From contig JALHNM010000002.1 of assembly GCA_022843485.1 (NCBI GenBank), positions 220,238 through 284,237 on the forward strand: a DNA stretch of 64,000 bases, written 5' to 3'. Under the pieces are notes generated by a model that was not told the origin of the DNA, did no database searches, and saw only the letters and a program-made list of their open reading frames with translations. This stretch comes from Fimbriimonadaceae bacterium (lineage in GTDB: Bacteria > Armatimonadota > Fimbriimonadia > Fimbriimonadales > Fimbriimonadaceae). Positions 51,617 to 60,312 of this stretch are shown piece by piece; the first letter of the stretch is position 1, and every line of letters starts with the position of its first letter. The translations under genes and the position numbers were made by a program.

Positions 51617-51968
51617 CGCCACCTCGGCCGAGAAGGCCGGTCTCATCCGCGAGTTCGCCGACGACCTGAAGGCCGAGCGCATCGAGGTCATCGACGTCCG
51701 TGCCAAGACGTCGGTCGCGGACTACTTCGTCGTGTGCTCCGGCACGAGCGACACCCACGTGAACGCCATCGCCGAGCGGGTCGAGGAGAAGATGCGTCTC
51801 TCCGGGCTACGGCCGTTGCGGTCCGAGGTCGGGGCCCGCGCGGGTGGGTGGGTGCTCTACGACTATGGCGACGTCCTCTTCCACGTGATGCTGGAGGAAA
51901 AGCGGCAGTTCTACGACCTTGAGGCGCTATGGCGGACGATCCAGGCCGACCCGAACCTGATCGACTGA
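51600..51968 (+). CDS. rsfS: Ribosomal silencing factor RsfS (no canonical start codon)
   Basis: The reading frame encodes an RsfS/Iojap protein that binds uL14 and blocks subunit joining. The conserved text runs LIREFADDLKAERIEVIDVRAKTSVADYFVVCSGTSDTHVNAIA to EKRQFYDLEALW. No ATG, GTG or TTG lies in frame between the upstream stop (51558) and GTG 51732, which would cut off the conserved first part. An ATC at 51600, preceded by AGGAAGGG four bases upstream, is the best start candidate; I use it as the boundary. The alternative is +1 frameshifting from nadD at GTC-TGA-C, which would fuse NadD and RsfS. A sequencing error is a third option. Its end overlaps the next gene by 40 bases. Confidence 0.8.
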   Translation: MENKSDATSAEKAGLIREFADDLKAERIEVIDVRAKTSVADYFVVCSGTSDTHVNAIAERVEEKMRLSGLRPLRSEVGARAGGWVLYDYGDVLFHVMLEEKRQFYDLEALWRTIQADPNLID

Positions 51969-52645
51969 CCCCCGAGGAGGCCCTCCCGCCCGCCCCGACC
52001 CCCGACCAGCTCGAGGCGGCGGAGCAGCTCCTGCGCCAGGCCAACCTCGCTCGCATGAGGGGCCGACTCGACGATGCACGCCGGCTCTTGGACGAAGCGC
52101 TCGCCACCGCGCCGGGGTCGTCGGCTGTCCAGGAGGCGGTCGGGGACGCCTATATCGCCGACCGACAGACTCGCAAGGCCCGAGACGCTTACCACACTGC
52201 CGTCCGGCTCGAACCCGGCAACGCCAGCGCCGAGCGCAAGTACGGCGAGACGGTGCTCGCTGTCCAGCTCGCCCTCGACCCTTCGTTCGCGACCGTCGCC
52301 CGGGACGAGAGCTTTGCGAGCGGGAGGGCGGCCGTGATCATGAACTTCCTGCTGCCCGGCCTCGGGCACCTGACGCTCGGACGCCAGCGCGAGGGCACGG
52401 TTCTACTTGCGGTATGGGTCGCGTCCGTGGGGCTCGCGCTGGCGGTGCCGAACGGGCTCAGCGGCTTCCCTGCCCTCTTCGGCCGCCCCGGGCCTCCCTT
52501 CAACGGCCTCGTGCTCCTGCCCCTCTTCACCGCCGCCGCGGCGTGGCTCTACGCGATCGGCGACTCGAGCGCGGCCGCCAAGCGCATGGACCTCAAACAA
52601 ATCCCCCGCCCCACCCCGCCGGTCGATAAGGACTTCGAACTCTAA
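51929..52645 (+). CDS. TPR protein with C-terminal membrane segment
   Basis: A 238-residue protein. Residues about 28-100 form TPR-like helices (AAEQLLRQANLARMRGRLDDARRLLDEAL; GDAYIADRQTRKARDAYHTAVRLEPGNA). The last third has hydrophobic segments (VIMNFLLPGLGHLTLGRQREGTVLLAVWVASVGLALAV; LLPLFTAAAAWLYAIGD), in which the first part resembles the TM2-type 'LPGLGHLTLGR' motif of small membrane proteins. The ATG at 51929 lies within rsfS, giving a 40-base overlap and probably coupled translation. It closes the operon. Function unknown. Confidence 0.75.
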   Translation: MADDPGRPEPDRLTPEEALPPAPTPDQLEAAEQLLRQANLARMRGRLDDARRLLDEALATAPGSSAVQEAVGDAYIADRQTRKARDAYHTAVRLEPGNASAERKYGETVLAVQLALDPSFATVARDESFASGRAAVIMNFLLPGLGHLTLGRQREGTVLLAVWVASVGLALAVPNGLSGFPALFGRPGPPFNGLVLLPLFTAAAAWLYAIGDSSAAAKRMDLKQIPRPTPPVDKDFEL

Positions 52646-52859
52646 CCCCGGAGGGCGGCGCTCTGCGGCGCCATCTCACCCGAGCCCCGCAGGCCTCCAG
52701 GAGCGCGGGTCCGCGACCCGCTCCCCGGACCCCGGAGCCGCGCTCCGGCTCGCTGGTCTCCAGCCCGGTCTCTGCTCCCCAGTAAGGGTCGAGTACCCGG
52801 CTCAAGAGTCCGGCCTGCCCACCAGGTCGGTCTGCTAGCCTTGGCCGTCCTTCTGAGTC
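52646..52859. other. Intergenic spacer with GC-rich inverted repeats
   Basis: About 214 bases between the ribosome-biogenesis operon and the convergent Rhs array. It contains short GC-rich repeats such as GCGGCGCTCTGCGGCGCC. No tRNA, open reading frame or clear T-tract terminator was seen. Confidence 0.4.
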
Positions 52860-53348
52860 TTACGAAGAGTCGAACACGAGATCGACGACCTTCTCCTGAT
52901 CGGGCCCCGATATCCCATGAATGATGACGATCTTGTGGGTCTTGCCCGAGGATCTCCCAATGTAGGTCACTTCGGTGACGGTACCCAGGTGCCAAATCGA
53001 GTGGGGCTTGAGGCTCTCGCCGGGTCGTCCGGTCGCCTCGACTGTCTTCATCCACTCCATGACCTCCTTTGGCACTGGATCCAGGTCGGGTGCGTCCGGG
53101 CGGTGAAAGTGAGCCCTTGCGGTCACCGGCATCTTTGCCCCCTGACCGGCTACGGCGTCGGATTCCCTTAAGGCGTCAGATAAGGACGCTATCTCGCTTC
53201 CCTCGGCCAAACTCCGCATCACCCGGACCACCCAGACCCCGAATACGACCGCCAGGGCGAGCCCGGCCCCGAAGAAGAACAGGGCGAACCGGCCGAGGGT
53301 GCGCAGGACAACCCTCCAGAGCCCGCCGTCAGTACCGCTCCTGCTCAC
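52860..53348 (-). CDS. Putative partner (immunity) protein of Rhs tip cassette 1, single-pass membrane
   Basis: A 162-residue protein with an N-terminal membrane helix (FALFFFGAGLALAVVFGVWVVRVM, about residues 19-42) and a soluble C-terminal domain (HSIWHLGTVTEVTYIGRSSGKTHKIVIIHGISG). It starts at the stop of the preceding Rhs tip gene with a four-base overlap (ATGA). Tight linkage to an Rhs C-terminal variable domain is the usual position of the cognate immunity gene, which is the basis for the guess; no immunity family is recognised. It is the last gene of the array. Confidence 0.6.
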   Translation of the reverse strand: MSRSGTDGGLWRVVLRTLGRFALFFFGAGLALAVVFGVWVVRVMRSLAEGSEIASLSDALRESDAVAGQGAKMPVTARAHFHRPDAPDLDPVPKEVMEWMKTVEATGRPGESLKPHSIWHLGTVTEVTYIGRSSGKTHKIVIIHGISGPDQEKVVDLVFDSS

Positions 53349-54160
53349 CGCTTTGCTTTGCCCCCGCCCGTCTTGGGGCCCACTTTCGGCTTAGGGGGCT
53401 TCGTAAACCACTGGGGAACACTCGAATTCGTCGGCCCGGGGAAGCCGACGATTTCCTTGGCAAGGCCAAGCCAGTTCCCGACCCTGACATCCTCGGCAGT
53501 CGTATAGCAACCTCCGAGATAGGCGAACTTGATCTTCCCCTTCCCTAGCGCTGCCCGGCGCCGGTTGATCTCCGCAACGTCCGCCTGGGTCAACTTGGTC
53601 ACGGACACGGTCTCTCCCTCTTCATTAACCTCTCGATGAAGGTAGAGGCTTCCGTGCGAATCGGCGTGGCCGTAGAACCAGAATTCGTCGTCCTCACCCG
53701 CAGCGACGAGAGCCTCGACCAGCGCACCCTTGTTCTGACCCGAATAGTGTTGATCCCCGTCTCGGTGGCCGATGAATCGTTCGGCGGCCCACTCCCCGCC
53801 TAGCACGTCGGGGTTAGTTAAGCATCCGATGACGATGAGCCTGTCCAGCCCAGCCGGGTCGGCGGAGTCGAGGGGGCTGTTCTCGCAGTAGACGTACCAG
53901 TTCCTCCCGCTGTAAGCCGGGTCGCGGCTGAGGAAGCGGCCGGTCGTCGGGTCGTACCAGCGGTGGCCCATTTGCGTCGGCCGGTTCGCGGCCTCCGTCC
54001 AATAACCGAACGCCCCCGCCGCGTTTGTCTGCAGGTCTGCGTTCTTTACCACCCGTGCAAGAACCGCGACGCCCCGCCGCTCGGTCATACCGGGAGTATA
54101 GCGCAGCTCGGGCTCCCGTTGGGCTTCACTCGCTCTTGACCGACCCTTCCCAGTCGTCAC
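53345..54160 (-). CDS. Rhs tip cassette 1: shortened Rhs core with a His/Cys-type C-terminal domain
   Basis: A 271-residue protein from GTG 54160. Residues about 45-95 are the Rhs core end (VGHRWYDPTTGRFLSRDPAYSGRNWYVYCEN-type, here with MGHRWYDPTTG). The variable domain begins after DPAGL at about residue 105. It contains DEFWFYGHADSHGSLYL and KIKFAYLGGCYTTAEDV, a His and a Cys in a spacing like the CHAT/caspase-type (clan CD) peptidase dyad; this is a motif impression only. Compared with the other copies, 30 residues of the core are missing by an exact 90-base deletion. It has no Rhs beta-shell and no signal peptide. Its start overlaps the previous partner gene by 35 bases. Confidence 0.75.
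   Translation of the reverse strand: MTTGKGRSRASEAQREPELRYTPGMTERRGVAVLARVVKNADLQTNAAGAFGYWTEAANRPTQMGHRWYDPTTGRFLSRDPAYSGRNWYVYCENSPLDSADPAGLDRLIVIGCLTNPDVLGGEWAAERFIGHRDGDQHYSGQNKGALVEALVAAGEDDEFWFYGHADSHGSLYLHREVNEEGETVSVTKLTQADVAEINRRRAALGKGKIKFAYLGGCYTTAEDVRVGNWLGLAKEIVGFPGPTNSSVPQWFTKPPKPKVGPKTGGGKAKR
53883..54105 (-). repeat. Rhs core repeat, copy 1 (internally deleted)
   Basis: Collinear with the other core copies from TCGCAGTAGACG (53883) but lacking 90 bases. In copy 2 the missing segment is flanked by the direct repeat CGCCCCCGC (55271-55279 and 55361-55369), while here one CGCCCCCGC remains (54011-54019). The outer part is also more diverged (GGTCATACCGGGAGTATAG in place of GCTCACGCCCGGAGTGTAG). 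Confidence 0.85.
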
Positions 54161-54632
54161 GAGTTACTTGAAAAGCCGTCCAATCCCTAAGGAACGTTTC
54201 GACCTCCACTACGGTAGCCCCCTTGGCAGACAGAACTAAGAGACCATCGTGCTCTAGATAGGCGTGCGCGGTGCCTTGTACCGCCCACACTTGCACGTCG
54301 AGGCCGGTCAGCCCGGCGACCGTGAAGAGACGAGCGGCTACTTGCAGGGATTCGTTGTCGTACTGTAGCGCCTTGGCGTCCCAGCTCGAGAACTCGCCCA
54401 GGCCGTAGAGAGAGCAGAGCTCGCTCAACAGGTCGAGTCGGACATCCTCGGAGCCCAGGTAGTCGTCAAACCGAATGAATCCGCCTTCGCAAAACGGCAG
54501 AGAAGTGTCGAACAGCCCTGCCGACAAACTTGACATCGTCGCGAGAAGCTCGCTTGTGACGGGAACTCGTCCCAGAACGTGTTCCTCACCGAGCCCAGAT
54601 GGGCATTCAGCGATAGAAAGCAGCCTGATCAC
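54126..54632 (-). CDS. Putative partner (immunity) protein of Rhs tip cassette 2, soluble
   Basis: A 168-residue soluble acidic protein (IRLLSIAECPSGLGEEHVLG..., FDDYLGSEDVRLDLLSELCSLYGL, AHAYLEHDGLLVLSAKGATVVEVETFLRDW). It starts with a GTG that shares four bases (GTGA) with the stop of Rhs tip cassette 2, the typical position of a cognate immunity gene. No signal or membrane helix is present, so a matching toxin would act in the cytoplasm. No family is recognised. Its base composition is visibly less GC-rich than its neighbours. Confidence 0.65.
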   Translation of the reverse strand: MIRLLSIAECPSGLGEEHVLGRVPVTSELLATMSSLSAGLFDTSLPFCEGGFIRFDDYLGSEDVRLDLLSELCSLYGLGEFSSWDAKALQYDNESLQVAARLFTVAGLTGLDVQVWAVQGTAHAYLEHDGLLVLSAKGATVVEVETFLRDWTAFQVTRDDWEGSVKSE

Positions 54633-55516
54633 CTGCTATGGCCTTCGCGGGTCAATCGCGGATCGGGCAAAGGTTCCATGCGGCCGCACGCACGGCACTT
54701 ACCCGGTGGATGTAGCATCCCAGTGCAAGACGGCGAGGAGGCGTTCGAGGGCATTAGGATGAGGACTAGGGTCAAGGGCAGCCGGATGAGTGGCGGTAGC
54801 GGTCGATTAGAGCCTGGAGGCACTTGGGGAGCGTGAGCTTTATCGTTAGGCAGTAGATAGCCCTTTTCAGAGAAACGCAGTCGCGTACCGCGCCCATCGT
54901 CGTAGTCCCAATGCTTGAACTTCGGATCCCAACTCACTTGTGGCTGGCTACCCTTCGGAGTCTTGAGCGACTTCTTGGGCACCCACTTACCGGGCCGAGA
55001 TCGAGGGTTGCTCGGGTCGTGGTTCGGGTTTGGTACCCACTTCCATTCCCCGTCCTTCGTCCCGGGAACTGGTATTGGAGGCTGCGTTTGACCAGGGATC
55101 GGCTCTAGACCACTCGGATCTGCCGAGTCCAGCGGCCCGTTCTCGCAGTAGACGTACCAGTTCCTCCCGCTGTAAGCCGGGTCGCGGCTGAGGAAGCGGC
55201 CGGTCGTCGGGTCGTACCAGCGGTGGCCTACCTGCGTCGGCCGGTTCGCGGCCTCCGTCCAATAGCCGAACGCCCCCGCGTACCCGAACGGGCCCGTCCA
55301 GATCCCCGAGAACGTCTGCACCCCGTCCCCGAACGCGTCGTACCGCCGGCGGCTCACCGTCGCCCCCGCCGCGTTCGTCTGCAGGTCAGCGTTCTTCACC
55401 CCGCCGTGCAGGAACCGCGACGCCCCGCCCCGCCGCTCGCTCACGCCCGGAGTGTAGCCCACCGCCGCAGCCCCGACGTCCGACTCGGGCCTTACGGAAT
55501 CACTCGACTTGCTCAA
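54629..55516 (-). CDS. Rhs tip cassette 2: full core with variable C-terminal domain
   Basis: A 295-residue protein from TTG 55516. Residues 1-20 are unique; residues about 21-130 are the conserved core (YTPGVSERRGGASRFLHGGV, ATVSRRRYDAFGDGVQTF, FGYWTEAANRPTQVGHRWYD, DPAYSGRNWYVYCENGPLD). The variable part begins after DPSGL and contains GEWKWVPNPNHDPSNP, WDPKFKHWDYDDGRGTRLRF and a Pro/Leu-rich end with CRACGR. The WDP..HWD.DDG motif resembles polymorphic-toxin nuclease tips that I cannot name with certainty. The start overlaps the previous partner gene's stop by four bases (TTGA). Confidence 0.78.
   Translation of the reverse strand: MSKSSDSVRPESDVGAAAVGYTPGVSERRGGASRFLHGGVKNADLQTNAAGATVSRRRYDAFGDGVQTFSGIWTGPFGYAGAFGYWTEAANRPTQVGHRWYDPTTGRFLSRDPAYSGRNWYVYCENGPLDSADPSGLEPIPGQTQPPIPVPGTKDGEWKWVPNPNHDPSNPRSRPGKWVPKKSLKTPKGSQPQVSWDPKFKHWDYDDGRGTRLRFSEKGYLLPNDKAHAPQVPPGSNRPLPPLIRLPLTLVLILMPSNASSPSCTGMLHPPGKCRACGRMEPLPDPRLTREGHSR
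55143..55457 (-). repeat. Rhs core repeat, copy 2 (complete)
   Basis: A 315-base block, 55143 (TCGCAGTAG...) to 55457 (...GTGTAG), identical in length to copy 3 and about 98% identical to it: only six differences were found by eye. It codes for the end of the Rhs core. Sequence on both sides is unrelated between copies. Confidence 0.92.
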
Positions 55517-55923
55517 CGTGACTCGACTCGGAGAACCGAGTTCTTGTGCCAGAGATAGAAGCTGACGCCAATCATGGCTAGACCGGCGGGGATCGTCAAG
55601 AACAAGGCCTCTTCGTTGTCGATACCAGCTCCCAAGATGACAAGGTGAAGGACGGCGACCGCGGACTGAACTACGAGGGATCTATGTAGTCGATCGGAAC
55701 TACTTGAAGAACGGCGGGACCCAAAGCGAAGACTCAGTAGCAAGACGAGGATGAGCAGGGGCGTGAGGATGAGTAAAGAGATCAGCAGCTGTCCCACGTT
55801 CTGAGCTAAAACCCAGAACAACTGCGTCGACACGTGCCAGAGCCGTGAAGGGGACATAGGAGGATCAAGCCCTATCGGCGACGGAGCACTCGGGCCCTCA
55901 GACGGGGCTTCTCCTGAGCCCAT
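55513..55923 (-). CDS. Putative partner (immunity) protein of Rhs tip cassette 3, multi-pass membrane
   Basis: A 136-residue protein from ATG 55923 with hydrophobic helices at about residues 38-60 (LISLLILTPLLILVLLLSLRF), 75-95 (LVVQSAVAVLHLVILGAGI) and 103-122 (LFLTIPAGLAMIGVSFYLWH). AGGAT precedes the ATG at a suitable distance; a GTG at 55968 and an ATG at 55857 are alternatives. It overlaps the Rhs tip cassette 3 gene by 52 bases in a different frame. A membrane immunity protein suggests that the cognate toxin acts on the envelope. No family is recognised. Confidence 0.6.
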   Translation of the reverse strand: MGSGEAPSEGPSAPSPIGLDPPMSPSRLWHVSTQLFWVLAQNVGQLLISLLILTPLLILVLLLSLRFGSRRSSSSSDRLHRSLVVQSAVAVLHLVILGAGIDNEEALFLTIPAGLAMIGVSFYLWHKNSVLRVESR

Positions 55924-56735
55924 GGGCCATATCCTGGCGTCCAGCAGGGCTGCGGGACCGGAACACACCCCTTAGGGATAGGGTTCCGCTTTGCCTTTCT
56001 GATGTCAGCCAGCCAGTCCTTTACTGGAACGAATGGGACTACGAGCGGCCCCGACACCGAGCCGTCCTTGCCTACGTAGTAGTCGACCGGCCCAGGACAG
56101 ATGTACCCGACACCCATCAGGAACCTCCTCTCGACCGTCCCGTCTGGGTAGACAATCACGACGAGATCGACGTCCATGCCGGGCGGCGAGCTCTTCCCCC
56201 GAGGCACCTTCATGCAAACCTGATCCTCCCTGCCATCACCATCGATATCGTATCCCTTGTGAGGCTCCCCGATGACGTAGACCTCGCCTTCGAAGTTCGG
56301 GCTCACGTGGACCTGGGCAGGGTCGGGCCACTCAAGCCCCGTCGGATCGACGTTCTGGAACGGGTTGTTGTCGCAGTGGACGTACCAGTTCCTCCCGCTC
56401 TTGGCCGGGTCGCGGCTGAGGAAGCGGCCGGTCGTCGGGTCGTACCAGCGGTGGCCCACCTGCGTCGGCCGGTTCGCGGCCTCCGTCCAATAGCCGAACG
56501 CCCCCGCGTACCCGAACGGGCCCGTCCAGATCCCCGAGAACGTCTGCACCCCGTCCCCGAACGCGTCGTACCGCCGGCGGCTCACCGTCGCCCCCGCCGC
56601 GTTCGTCTGCAGGTCAGCGTTCTTCACCCCGCCGTGCAGGAACCGCGACACCCCGCCCCGCCGCTCGCTCACGCCCGGAGTGTAGCATTGAGTCACGTTC
56701 CCCAATGCTCCACGAGTGCTCCGCAATGACCGCAT
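55872..56735 (-). CDS. Rhs tip cassette 3: full core with variable C-terminal domain
   Basis: A 287-residue protein from ATG 56735. Residues about 17-125 are the conserved Rhs core (CYTPGVSERRGGVSRFLHGG to RNWYVHCDNNPFQNVDPTGL). The variable domain has YVIGEPHKGYDIDGDGREDQVCMKV, in which DIDGDGRED resembles a calcium-binding loop, VVIVYPDGTVERRFLMGVG, and a C-terminal stretch rich in Pro, Cys and Arg. No catalytic motif is recognised. It starts 17 bases after the previous partner gene ends. Confidence 0.78.
   Translation of the reverse strand: MRSLRSTRGALGNVTQCYTPGVSERRGGVSRFLHGGVKNADLQTNAAGATVSRRRYDAFGDGVQTFSGIWTGPFGYAGAFGYWTEAANRPTQVGHRWYDPTTGRFLSRDPAKSGRNWYVHCDNNPFQNVDPTGLEWPDPAQVHVSPNFEGEVYVIGEPHKGYDIDGDGREDQVCMKVPRGKSSPPGMDVDLVVIVYPDGTVERRFLMGVGYICPGPVDYYVGKDGSVSGPLVVPFVPVKDWLADIRKAKRNPIPKGCVPVPQPCWTPGYGPWAQEKPRLRARVLRRR
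56371..56685 (-). repeat. Rhs core repeat, copy 3 (complete)
   Basis: A 315-base block from 56371 (TCGCAGTGG...) to 56685 (...GTGTAG), collinear with copy 2 (55143-55457) without insertions. The six substitutions seen are clustered near the variable-domain side. Confidence 0.92.
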
Positions 56736-56752
56736 GAGTGAGGGCTGCCCAC

Positions 56753-57127
56753 CTACAAGCTACCCATAGGACTATGAGCGTAACTCACTGAGCGAAGACG
56801 TCCGTCCTCCCGCAGCTTTAGCCAAGCCGTTCTCTCCAGCCAACCCTTTGGGGCCAGGTAGACGAAACCAAAGGTCACGATCCGTCCTGTCTCTTCGTCG
56901 CGCATCCTATCCCATCCCACCTGGACGCCGAGATCGGCCATCCTCAGCTCGATCTGGTCTTGGCTACACTCCTGCACAAGGCATTCGTCAAGAGCGATGA
57001 CTGCCTCAAGGCTTCTGTCCAAAGATGATGCCCGACCTAACGCACCTACCAGGCTTAGCGTGAGAACCGCCGCCAAGAACCAGAACAATGCCTTCCGTTG
57101 ACGGTCACTCATAGGCTGGTACCGCAT
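56753..57127 (-). CDS. Putative partner (immunity) protein of Rhs tip cassette 4, single-pass membrane
   Basis: A 124-residue protein from ATG 57127 with one membrane helix (ALFWFLAAVLTLSLVGAL, about residues 14-31) and a soluble C-terminal part (ALDECLVQECSQDQIELRMAD; IVTFGFVYLAPKGWLERTAWLKLREDG). AAGG lies about 10 bases before the ATG, behind a run of seven T (A on this strand) that is prone to slippage. It follows the fourth Rhs tip gene by 127 bases. No family is recognised. Confidence 0.6.
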   Translation of the reverse strand: MRYQPMSDRQRKALFWFLAAVLTLSLVGALGRASSLDRSLEAVIALDECLVQECSQDQIELRMADLGVQVGWDRMRDEETGRIVTFGFVYLAPKGWLERTAWLKLREDGRLRSVSYAHSPMGSL

Positions 57128-57254
57128 CCAATGACCTTTTTTTGGGGCGAGGAGCTTCACGAGTTGTTCAAGCCGCTCTCGCTCTGCCCCGAGACTACCT
57201 GCACGAACTGGTTCCGGGCTTCAACTCGATTCGCTCGGCACCTCTCTGCCCGAA

Positions 57255-58046
57255 TCAAATGCGGCCTCGCTCCGGGGGAACCGGCCCCCATGGATCCCGA
57301 CCGTACCCAGGCAACCACTTGTCTGGATGGCCCGCTCTTCGGCGCTTTTTGAGGGCCTTCTCGAACTCGTCCAAGAGTCCTGCTTCCTTGAGAAGCTTAT
57401 ACGCCCATGAGTTAGAGTTAACGCCGAGTACGCCGTATCCGACGTAACCTTGGGCTAGCTCGTCTTCGATTTGGTTGAATCGCTTGAGCCACGGTCCGAC
57501 TGGCGACTGATCGTCCACGAGAACGACTCCGCTCGTGATCTCGTGCTTGGAGTCTTGAAGCGTTTCGTCGTCTTTAGGGCCCGATTTTGACTGCAGTGCT
57601 CCCTGATTAAGAGTTCCGTAGCTCTCCGGACCACCGTTGTATCTCCACTTCTTGCCGTAGGTGGGGCTCCCCGGTACGTTGTCTTCAACCTCGATTCCTA
57701 AGTGGTACCCCTCGGTGCCTTTGACAGGGTACCAGTAGGCGGTGATCTTGACCAGCCCACTCGGGTCGGCGCTCTGCAGCGGCCCGTTGTCGCAGTAGAC
57801 GTACCAGTTCCTCCCGCTCTTGGCCGGGTCGCGGCTGAGGAAGCGGCCGGTCGTCGGGTCGTACCAGCGGTGGCCCACCTGCGTCGGCCGGTTCGCGGCC
57901 TCCGTCCAATATCCGAACGCCCCCGCGTACCCGAACGGGCCCGGCGAGCAGCGACAAACTGAGCGAGAAAGGTGTGTCACGGAAGGATCGAAACGTTGCA
58001 ACCCTCTGGCTGACCGTAGTCTAGCAAAGCCAACGGGTGTGACCAA
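57255..58046 (-). CDS. Rhs tip cassette 4 (5'-truncated core) with papain/NlpC-like C-terminal domain
   Basis: A 263-residue protein from TTG 58046. The first ~34 residues are unrelated to Rhs (TPVGFARLRSARGLQRFDPS); the core enters at GPFGYAGAFGYWTEAANRP and continues to DPSGL. The variable domain shows TEGYHLGIEVEDN, KWRYNGGPES and GVNSNSWAYKLLKEAGL. A His in 'YHLGIEV' and an 'NSNSxAY..L' helix are the pattern of permuted papain/NlpC-like domains, with Ser where a Cys might be expected. The break with the core at about 57943 marks a recombination junction. It is the 5'-most cassette. Expression of this gene is uncertain because the native start has been lost. Confidence 0.65.
   Translation of the reverse strand: MVTPVGFARLRSARGLQRFDPSVTHLSRSVCRCSPGPFGYAGAFGYWTEAANRPTQVGHRWYDPTTGRFLSRDPAKSGRNWYVYCDNGPLQSADPSGLVKITAYWYPVKGTEGYHLGIEVEDNVPGSPTYGKKWRYNGGPESYGTLNQGALQSKSGPKDDETLQDSKHEITSGVVLVDDQSPVGPWLKRFNQIEDELAQGYVGYGVLGVNSNSWAYKLLKEAGLLDEFEKALKKRRRAGHPDKWLPGYGRDPWGPVPPERGRI
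57790..57943 (-). repeat. Rhs core repeat, copy 4 (truncated at 5' side)
   Basis: A 154-base block collinear with copy 2 (55143-55296), ending abruptly at CGGGCCCG where the other copies continue with TCCAGATCCCC. The outer half of the core is missing and replaced by unrelated DNA. Confidence 0.88.
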
Positions 58047-59011
58047 GTAGACGCGTGTCTCTCTTCAATCAGGCTCCGAGTTGCGCCGGGTCGGTTCGGC
58101 GCCGGGGTGCCCTCAGACGGTCGATTGCGTTTCGAGCCCCCCCTTCCGTCTGCGCGCGCCCTGTGAGGCGGCTTGGGGCGAGGTGTCGGGCCCAGGGGTC
58201 ACCGGGGGAATCGCCGGGAGTACCTTACCTCTCCCTTACCTGTCCGATACCCATTCTTTACCTCGAAGGTAGCGACGGCGTACGCACGTCAATGGATCAC
58301 GTTCGGCAGACACTTCGTTCCGGGATCGTGTCTCCCGCAGCCCGCTTCCAGCGGGGGCGCGGAGGGGGCAGGCGCCTGCCGAAGTCGAGTGTCACGTGCT
58401 TGGGAGAGACGGCGAGGCCAAAGGAGCGGTGGCGCCAAGTGTGAGTGGAGCCGGGACCCGGGATCACCTGGCTGTTCGCGCCGAAGCTCAGGACGCCTGC
58501 GACCCCGTCGAGCCAAGCTCCGGTGAGTCGCAGTCCCTCGCCGCCTCGGCTCTCGATGGGGGCGATCCCGGGGAGTATCGGTCGCTTGATACCCCGGCGA
58601 TGACTCTCACCGGCCAATCGAGGAACCCCGAGGGATACGGGATCGACTCCTTCGCCCATTCCCTTGTCCGTCACCGCCCTCGGCTTTCCCCCCGAGCCAG
58701 ACCGGGCCACCCACCCAGCCGCTCGCTCACGCAGGGAGTGTGGGCCATCACCGACGCCCACACCGTTCGGGCCCGGCCGATGGAGATGGGACAAGAGCAA
58801 AGGCCCGGGTGTCGAGAGGCAGGGGGTGCGCGTCCTCCAGCCGACCTCGGAAGGGAGGACTCCGAAGAGCGAAAGGCTCCGGCCTAAGTCCGCTTCTCGA
58901 ACGGGCCGGTGGGGCGAAAACAGTTCCACGCGACCAATGTCGAGACTCTAGCGCGACGGCCAGCAGTCGGACTCCAAGGGACGAGCCGTCGCACCCCCCG
59001 AATAGGGGGGC
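58047..59011. other. Gene-poor region with decayed Rhs-like sequence
   Basis: About 965 bases without a convincing gene. Open frames on both strands are low-quality. At 58717-58746 a stretch reading GCCGCTCGCTCACGCAGGGAGTGTGGGCC closely matches the outer border of the Rhs core (GCCGCTCGCTCACGCCCGGAGTGTAG), so a degraded cassette probably existed here. A 210-residue minus-strand frame (58297-58929) contains the odd sequence VIPGPGSTHTWRHRSFGLAV, but has no gene-like start. No terminator or RNA was recognised. Confidence 0.5.
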
Positions 59012-59656
59012 CTAGAGCACGACGGAGCGGTCTTTGGCCCTGGTGAGTTCGTCCATGAGGCCCCGTTGGACGACGGTCATCGTGACGTCGCTGCGGGTGC
59101 GTTCGATCACGGCGCGGAGGGCGTCGCAGGTGCGGCGCAGGCCTCCGGTCAGTGCGTCCGGGTAGTCGAAGGCGATGAGGTCGTCGTAGACCGTCTCCAT
59201 CAGCCGCAAAAGCCGCTCGGCCTCGGCGAGGTGGCCCTTGCGGAGGTCGTCGAGCACGTACCTCCGGCACTCCGACGCGGCCTCGGCCACGCCGTTCAGG
59301 TACGACGCCGGGCCGACCTGCAACGCCTCGGCGAGCGGCAGCGTGTTCCCCTTCACCATCGCCAGCAGCACGGCCGCCTCGACCATCTCCTTCTCGGCGT
59401 CCTGCAGGAACCCGGTGAAGTAAAGCTCCGGGTGCGGCGCCAGCAGCCCGCGCGCCCGGTCCGCCACGGCTTGGGCCTCGGCGAGCAGCCCCTGCGCCTC
59501 GGTGAACTGCCGACGGTGGACGTGCCGGATGCACTTCGAGCTCGTCTGGATCAGCAGCCGGCACTCGCGCAGGGCCCCCTCCCGCGTCTGGTGCATCGCG
59601 TCCATCACCGGCCGCAGCCCGGCCACCGCCTCCTCCCACTCTCGTTCGAACGTCAT
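59012..59656 (-). CDS. Translin-family protein
   Basis: A 214-residue all-helical protein with the translin layout: an N-terminal helix with RECRLLIQTSSKCIRHVHRRQF, the central PHPELYFTGFLQDAEKEMVEAAVLLAMVKGNTLPLAEAL, and the C-terminal ECRRYVLDDLRKGHLAEAERLLRLMETVYDDLIAFDYPDALTGGLRRTCDALRAVIERTRSDV. Eukaryotic translin binds single-stranded nucleic acid and, with TRAX, cuts RNA; translin homologues in bacteria are sparse. The ATG at 59656 overlaps the stop of radC by four bases (ATGA), so both are made together. Confidence 0.85.
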   Translation of the reverse strand: MTFEREWEEAVAGLRPVMDAMHQTREGALRECRLLIQTSSKCIRHVHRRQFTEAQGLLAEAQAVADRARGLLAPHPELYFTGFLQDAEKEMVEAAVLLAMVKGNTLPLAEALQVGPASYLNGVAEAASECRRYVLDDLRKGHLAEAERLLRLMETVYDDLIAFDYPDALTGGLRRTCDALRAVIERTRSDVTMTVVQRGLMDELTRAKDRSVVL

Positions 59657-60312
59657 AGCATCCCCCGCTCCTGCAGGCTCGTGTAGCGGCCATTGTGACC
59701 GATCACGAGGTGGTCGAGCACCGGGACGTCGAGGAGCTCGCCCGCTTCCTTGAGCATTCGGGTCACGCGGACGTCCTCGGGCGAGGGGGTCGGGTCGCCG
59801 CTCGGGTGGTTGTGGGCCACGATCACGCTCGCCGCGTTGTGCCGCACCGCCTCGCGGAAGACCTCCCGGGCCCCGACGACGCTCATGTTCAGCGTCCCGA
59901 TGTGGATGGTCTTCCGGGTGATCAGGGCGCCCTTCGAGTCGAAGAACGCGGCGCAGAAGTGCTCCTGCTTCTCGTCCGCCAGGTTGCGGAACACCTCGTA
60001 GGCGTCCTTCGAGTTCGCGACGACCGTGGCCCGCTCGCCCTGCGTCGCGAGGCCGATCCGGCGCCCGAGCTCGAGCGCGGCCAGGACCCGCCCCGCCTCG
60101 TACGCCTCCAGCCCGGCCACTCGGTGCAGGTCGGCGGGCGAGAGGTCGCGGTAGTGCGGGAGCTGATAGTCGCCGAACGCCTGGCGCACTTCGGTCTCGG
60201 TCGTCGCCACGTCCCGTTCGTCGCGGGTGACGGCAAGCGTCAGGAGCTCGATCGGGGTCAGGGTCGCCAGACCGGTCTCGAGGGCCTTTGTCCAAGCCGA
60301 TGTGGGCCTCAC
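59653..60312 (-). CDS. radC: RadC/JAB-domain protein
   Basis: A 219-residue RadC-family protein. The N-terminal helix-hairpin-helix part (PADLHRVAGLEAYEAGRVLAALELGRR) is followed by the JAB/MPN metal-binding motif EHFCAAFFDSKGALITRKTIHIGTLNMSVVGAREVFREAV and VIVAHNHPSGDPTPSPEDVRVTRML. RadC was once linked to repair, but its role is unclear; the His-x-His and Asp residues indicate a zinc protease-like fold. The start is the GTG at 60312, overlapping the rluD stop by four bases. It is co-translated with the translin gene. Confidence 0.92.
   Translation of the reverse strand: MRPTSAWTKALETGLATLTPIELLTLAVTRDERDVATTETEVRQAFGDYQLPHYRDLSPADLHRVAGLEAYEAGRVLAALELGRRIGLATQGERATVVANSKDAYEVFRNLADEKQEHFCAAFFDSKGALITRKTIHIGTLNMSVVGAREVFREAVRHNAASVIVAHNHPSGDPTPSPEDVRVTRMLKEAGELLDVPVLDHLVIGHNGRYTSLQERGML

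Follow-up and report, generated by a model that had tools for sequence, protein, structure and literature searches.

Results

Four Rhs tips with downstream partner genes at one locus

The stretch of DNA analysed here, referred to as the window, comprises 64,000 nucleotides (nt) of a draft genome (2.96 Mb, 20 contigs, 98.78% complete) that named relatives place in the Fimbriimonadaceae, phylum Armatimonadota. We analysed the span 52860-58046 on the minus strand of this window, where, reading from 58046 down to 52860, four Rhs tips (C1 to C4) are each followed by a small partner gene (I1 to I4), giving eight open reading frames (ORFs; Table 1). Every tip consists of the end of an Rhs core, a DPxGL motif and a C-terminal domain (CT), and the four domains, CT1 to CT4, are mutually unrelated. 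The names of the tips are independent of the labels of contigs C1, C2, C5 and C6. An earlier note on this DNA had described four minus-strand modules, each made of an Rhs core end, a differing CT and a small partner, and this description is confirmed by the ORFs and by matches to TIGR03696 (Rhs-associated core), which scored above cut-off in all four tips (E 3e-13 to 1e-14). No further NCBIfam or Pfam model reached cut-off in any of the eight array proteins and an Rfam search gave no matches.

The reading frames of the four tips and of their four partners are uninterrupted. The overlaps of 4, 4 and 35 nt and the gap of 17 nt between genes, as listed in the earlier note, are real, but that list was incomplete: there is an additional overlap of 4 nt between C3 and I2, and I1 starts 94 nt past the end of tip C1. 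An apparent overlap of 97 nt between I2 and C2 vanishes if I2 starts at ATG 55857, 14 nt past the C2 stop codon. In relative G005 the flanking TPR and translin-like genes are only 9 bp apart and the array site is empty; the whole 6.4 kb between these two genes therefore looks like an insertion. No inverted repeats, as a sign of a mobile element, were found at the array borders.

Table 1. Features of the array and its flanks (positions in the window)
Feature	Position	Strand	Remarks
TPR gene	51929-52645	+	one flank of the array
Whole insertion (putative)	52646-59011	.	between two convergent housekeeping genes
Partner I4 of C4	52860-53348	-	one N-terminal transmembrane segment; start overlaps C4 stop by 4 nt
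Tip C4	53345-54160	-	core with in-frame deletion; CT4 53348-53848; possible leaderless start ATG 54088
CT4 His61 (53666-53668) to Cys114 (53507-53509)	53507-53668	-	invariant in 12-sequence alignment
TATACT in C4	54095-54100	-	-10-like hexamer, 6 nt before ATG 54088
Partner I3 of C3	54126-54632	-	soluble; start overlaps C3 stop by 4 nt
Tip C3	54629-55516	-	117-codon core end; CT3 54632-55108; possible leaderless start GTG 55444
TACACT in C3	55451-55456	-	-10-like hexamer, 6 nt before GTG 55444
Partner I2 of C2	55513-55857	-	small protein with several transmembrane segments; most likely start ATG 55857
Tip C2	55872-56735	-	117-codon core end; CT2 55875-56336; possible leaderless start GTG 56672
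TACACT in C2	56679-56684	-	-10-like hexamer, 6 nt before GTG 56672
Partner I1 of C1	56753-57160	-	one N-terminal transmembrane segment; putative immunity protein
Tip C1	57255-58046	-	short Rhs core end from about 57942; CT1 57258-57755
Decayed fifth core start	58710-58759	-	80% over 50 nt to tip C3; no open core frame now
Translin-like gene	59012-59686	-	other flank of the array

The tips share one family of core DNA

The core DNA of the array forms a single repeat family with four copies, outside which the flanks and CTs are unrelated. Tips C2 and C3 share 320 nt at 98% identity and diverge shortly before DPxGL; over their first 93 codons there are 2 differences in 279 nt, which indicates that copying was recent. 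Identity to the other copies is 89-94% for the core of tip C1 and 83-91% for that of tip C4, and this degree of sharing is far beyond chance. The copies differ in extent, as tips C2 and C3 have kept 117 codons from YTPG to DPxGL, only the last ~64 codons remain in tip C1, and tip C4 has an in-frame deletion of ~30 codons between short direct repeats. A decayed fifth core start sits upstream of the four intact tips. The GC content is 57-59% in parts of the partners and CTs versus up to 69% in core stretches; a low GC content has been described for displaced Rhs tips (PMC2935791) and was counted in favour of reading the array as a set of such tips.

No parent gene in the assembly, and parentless arrays in relatives

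The earlier note had found no parent Rhs gene in the window, and a genome-wide check extends this finding. Elsewhere the genome has two full-length Rhs genes, one on contig C5 (1389 amino acids [aa], with a signal-peptide-like N-terminus) and one on contig C6 (about 1685 aa), and both have a single extra tip behind them. Their cores, however, differ from that of the array: beyond the array, the best match to its core DNA has 76% identity over 103 nt, compared with 84-98% among the array copies. A search of the genome with RHS_repeat detected only these two genes and a fragment on contig C2, and no further long Rhs gene. A parent located at a contig end was considered and excluded by the lack of any extra array-core copy in the genome. 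The array is thus without a parent of its own core in this assembly although, the genome being a draft, such a parent could sit in a gap.

Rhs cores of this kind were present in 53 of the 61 genomes searched. A relative from the same genus (G001) had no match to the array core. Tip arrays beside a parent are frequent among these relatives. Others have no full-length Rhs gene in the surrounding stretch, among them those of G008 (one contig, eight tips), G018, G025 and G041, and the parentless state is therefore recurrent in several genera of the lineage.

The comparison also revealed a class of split Rhs genes, in which the long gene ends after ...VWDGxDYLxE and the tip begins within a few nt at ATG/GTG-Pro, often with a GGAGG-like ribosome-binding site ahead; later tips in the same array start alike. 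Examples are L159 (G032 C1:2740000-2753000), L156 (G008 C1:755000-763000), L160 and, in the genome under study, L019 (contig C2, about 417-420 kb). This arrangement is reminiscent of the TcB/TcC split; its tips contain only about 110 residues of the core. The tips of our array do not belong to this class, as they begin with YTPG(V/M)SERR and have no ribosome-binding site, whereas split-class tips begin with MP..Y after one. In G033 (CP021424.1; L083-L085, both record ends) there is an array of many Rhs tips of which several are out of frame. These frame breaks stem from G or C runs that vary in length immediately ahead of YTPG and may reflect sequencing errors or phase variation; a programmed frameshift was initially considered for this repeated break and was dropped once the breaks had been traced to the run lengths.

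C-terminal domains have relatives behind other Rhs cores

All four CTs have relatives behind Rhs cores elsewhere, and those of CT3 and CT4 include domains on Rhs frames of >1300 aa. Eight other genomes of the order contain CT1 relatives, and nearly all of these relatives follow an Rhs core. For CT2, the relatives are the CT of the extra tip on contig C5 and tips in several other genomes; one further match, in G088, lay inside a sensor-kinase protein and was discarded as chance. The CT2 family is accordingly present at two Rhs loci of one genome (the extra tip being L017 6057-6482, minus strand), with multi-spanning membrane partners that differ between the two. CT3, which has a hydrophobic stretch close to its C-terminus, has a relative that ends a 1337-aa Rhs protein in G030. 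The relatives of CT4 comprise the end of a 1444-aa Rhs protein in G027, other tips and some apparently free-standing proteins; short CT4-like proteins seemingly lacking an Rhs core were observed at L117, L119 and L120 (G007, G061 and G036, respectively).

Structure predictions were based on shallow alignments, from which the loci found in the search of the relatives' genomes were left out. In a 12-sequence alignment of the CT4 family, a Gly-His pair (His61) and Cys114 are invariant, and in the CT4 model strands E55-59 and E108-112 correspond to the hydrophobic strand before the His and that before the Cys, respectively. Some CT4 relatives weakly match DUF6345, Peptidase_C13 or C50, while CT4 itself is below the Pfam cut-off. 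A profile search of solved structures placed legumain-type proteases at the top with marginal E-values. When the weak CT4 model (pLDDT 62.6) was compared with VIA-align, nearly all of the 50 best rows were legumains, CHAT proteins and caspases (Z up to 8.0); Foldseek alone gave no significant match to the same model. CT4 thus looks like a clan-CD-like (legumain/CHAT/caspase-like) peptidase domain. For CT1 (pLDDT 64), the best folds included the type VI secretion system effector TseH (Z 5.8) and PPPDE1 (Z 4.5), and the predicted fold resembles that of NlpC/P60-PPPDE proteins, albeit with low Z values. The alignment of the CT1 family had no match among solved structures, and NSNS, or NSNT/NSNA, replaces the Asn-Cys (NC) box, such that the catalytic Cys expected of NlpC/P60-PPPDE enzymes is missing.

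These alignments bear on whether the array is a dead remnant, in which the 3' end of a lost Rhs gene is decaying while its tips and partners drift unexpressed. The decayed fifth core start, the shortened cores of C1 and C4 and the lack of a parent are what such decay would leave behind. The eight open frames, the retention of the invariant family positions in CT1 and CT2 and of His61 and Cys114 in CT4, and the recent copying of the C2 and C3 cores all speak against drift, and we consider this explanation improbable.

Partner topology follows the C-terminal domain family

The topology of the partner tracks the CT family. Where CT1 relatives have an intact downstream gene, it encodes a protein with one N-terminal transmembrane segment, like I1, and the same is true of most CT4 relatives on Rhs tips, which are followed by a small protein of this type. 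Most CT2 relatives have a multi-spanning membrane protein downstream and the CT3 relative has a soluble one. All four array partners conform to this pattern. Homology of the array partners to the partners of related CTs did not exceed controls in hhalign or in shuffled local alignments. Given their position and topology, and what generally holds for Rhs loci (PMC3150448), the partners are putative immunity proteins.

Three cassettes begin at a promoter-like element

In tips C2, C3 and C4 the homology between cassettes begins 1-2 nt ahead of a hexamer (TACACT in C2 and C3, TATACT in C4), with unrelated DNA upstream, and 6 nt past the hexamer there is a potential start codon, GTG in C2 and C3 and ATG in C4. 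Tip C1 lacks this TA[CT]ACT-N6-start element. Across 259 genes, TANNNT occurred 16 times at exactly this 6-nt spacing before candidate starts versus about 4 times at other in-frame offsets (Poisson 7e-6). As an observation on the genome as a whole, this fourfold enrichment of TANNNT-N6-start (the window plus L168-L187, contig C1:1-400000) suggests that leaderless transcripts are widespread. ACT, which forms part of the hexamer motif, accounts for 4.4% of Thr codons. About 50 other YTPG tips in relatives have mostly ACG at this position and, among those with ACT, none has ATG, GTG or TTG at the site of the start codon. Relative to C2, both elements are improved in tip C4 (TACACT to TATACT and GTG to ATG). 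Searches for sigma-70 promoters and terminators gave no excess over chance, and no two-hexamer site was detected at the cassette starts.

This sequence signature raises the possibility that tips C2, C3 and C4 may be expressed from leaderless promoters. They would then be autonomous genes, with a promoter contained in the codons for the core motif YTPG(V/M), and the resulting short core-CT protein and its partner would act in the producer like a toxin-antitoxin pair or be loaded in trans onto another Rhs shell. Several observations are consistent with self-expressed tips: homology starts right at the hexamer despite unrelated upstream DNA, the spacing is the one enriched in this genome, the ACT codon is rare, the changes in C4 improve both elements while ACT tips of relatives have no start codon there, in Salmonella an orphan rhs is expressed from core-internal promoters (PMC7043789), and tips of the split Rhs class in this family have a ribosome-binding site and a start of their own. 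However, TA-AC- is dictated by the YT codons, and the signature was noticed after the fact in three copies that share one ancestor and so counts as one event. Further points against are that C1 has no such element, that no two-hexamer sigma-70 site was detected, that three of the four partners are anchored in the membrane, a poor match for a cytoplasmic toxin, and that none of the tips has an evident signal peptide. We therefore regard self-expression as possible but rather unlikely. A more far-reaching version, in which cassettes spread by core recombination each bring their own leaderless promoter and start, need no parent and yield a short core-CT protein together with its protector, is put forward only tentatively and as doubtful; if true, independent tips, together with the split Rhs genes found in this family, would point to a lineage that often makes its Rhs tips as separate proteins.

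Discussion

A parentless array makes it possible to test why bacteria keep toxin tips that lack a delivery protein. Where most cassettes of such an array start exactly at a promoter-like element, either it is the partners that are retained or the tips are produced independently. Such arrays are numerous in the family examined here, which also has a split Rhs class whose tips clearly possess starts of their own.

We consider it reasonably probable that the locus is an array of displaced Rhs toxin/immunity cassettes that has outlived, or moved away from, its parent and now serves mainly as a store of immunity genes and tips. Origin by tip displacement through core recombination is the established model for arrays of this type (PMC2935791) and fits every feature seen. 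As inferred from the family, homologous recombination within the shared core DNA would have brought the cassettes in and displaced them. The array may be retained mainly for its partner genes, as an immunity bank against neighbours that deliver these CTs, while the tips would be held as recombination material for any incoming Rhs gene with the array core. C2, C3 and C4 may each be transcribed from a promoter at the cassette start and translated from a leaderless start, which would supply the partners as well.

Four considerations weigh against an immunity and tip store. First, no matching parent is present, so a reservoir role needs incoming DNA. Second, a parent may lie in a gap between the 20 contigs (98.78% complete). 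Third, as the partners have no detected homology to the partners of related CTs, immunity is deduced from position and topology, and the toxic and protective roles of tips and partners are predictions. Finally, the promoter-like starts could mean that the tips themselves are used.

The earlier note regarded the locus as the most likely undescribed system in the window. This does not hold, as tip arrays, orphan modules and internal expression have already been described (PMC2935791, PMC3150448, PMC7043789) and arrays lacking a neighbouring parent are found repeatedly, in several genera of the lineage. The library searched contained no paper joining Rhs toxins with this phylum under the name Armatimonadetes.

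Displaced (dissociated) Rhs tip arrays were described by Jackson et al. 2009 (PMC2935791). Their arrays and ours share fragments of near-identical core DNA followed by an unrelated C-terminus, the occurrence of several such tips in a row and a lower GC content of the tips; in their case, the tips lie downstream of a full-length rhs gene of the same core clade, whereas here there is none at the locus or in the assembly. Orphan rhs-CT/rhsI modules were shown to be functional toxin/immunity pairs by Poole et al. 2011 (PMC3150448). As in these and the orphan cdiA-CT/cdiI modules, each array cassette has a CT with a downstream partner, and the CTs have relatives fused to full-length proteins. The array shares with the orphan Rhs-CT/RhsI module a core fragment running to DPxGL, a CT known from Rhs proteins elsewhere and a small downstream gene, but is not positioned downstream of a full-length rhs gene with a near-identical core. 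Moreover, reported cdiA-CT orphans are generally without translation starts, whereas three of the array tips combine a start codon with a promoter-like element at the cassette border. Internal expression of a Salmonella orphan Rhs tip as a toxin-antitoxin pair was reported by Starsta et al. 2020 (PMC7043789), with transcription proposed inside the conserved core shortly before the CT and a short core-CT protein as its product. This is similar to what the cassette starts suggest here, although Salmonella has an adjacent parent and mapped transcripts, while the array has a sequence signature alone and one of the leaderless type.

With respect to the individual domains, caspase-like domains are known among polymorphic-toxin C-termini from Zhang et al. 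2012 (PMC3482391). CT4 is comparable in being a C-terminal, predicted clan-CD-like domain with a His/Cys pair, and differs in that no Pfam family reaches its cut-off in CT4 itself, with only some of its relatives matching weakly. TseH and the PPPDE/NlpC-P60 hydrolases rank near the top of the fold matches to the CT1 model, but the Asn-Cys box reads Asn-Ser in the CT1 family and the comparison is limited by low Z values and a pLDDT of 64. The array is a system of a known kind, and what sets it apart is the combination of a missing parent with a promoter-like cassette border.

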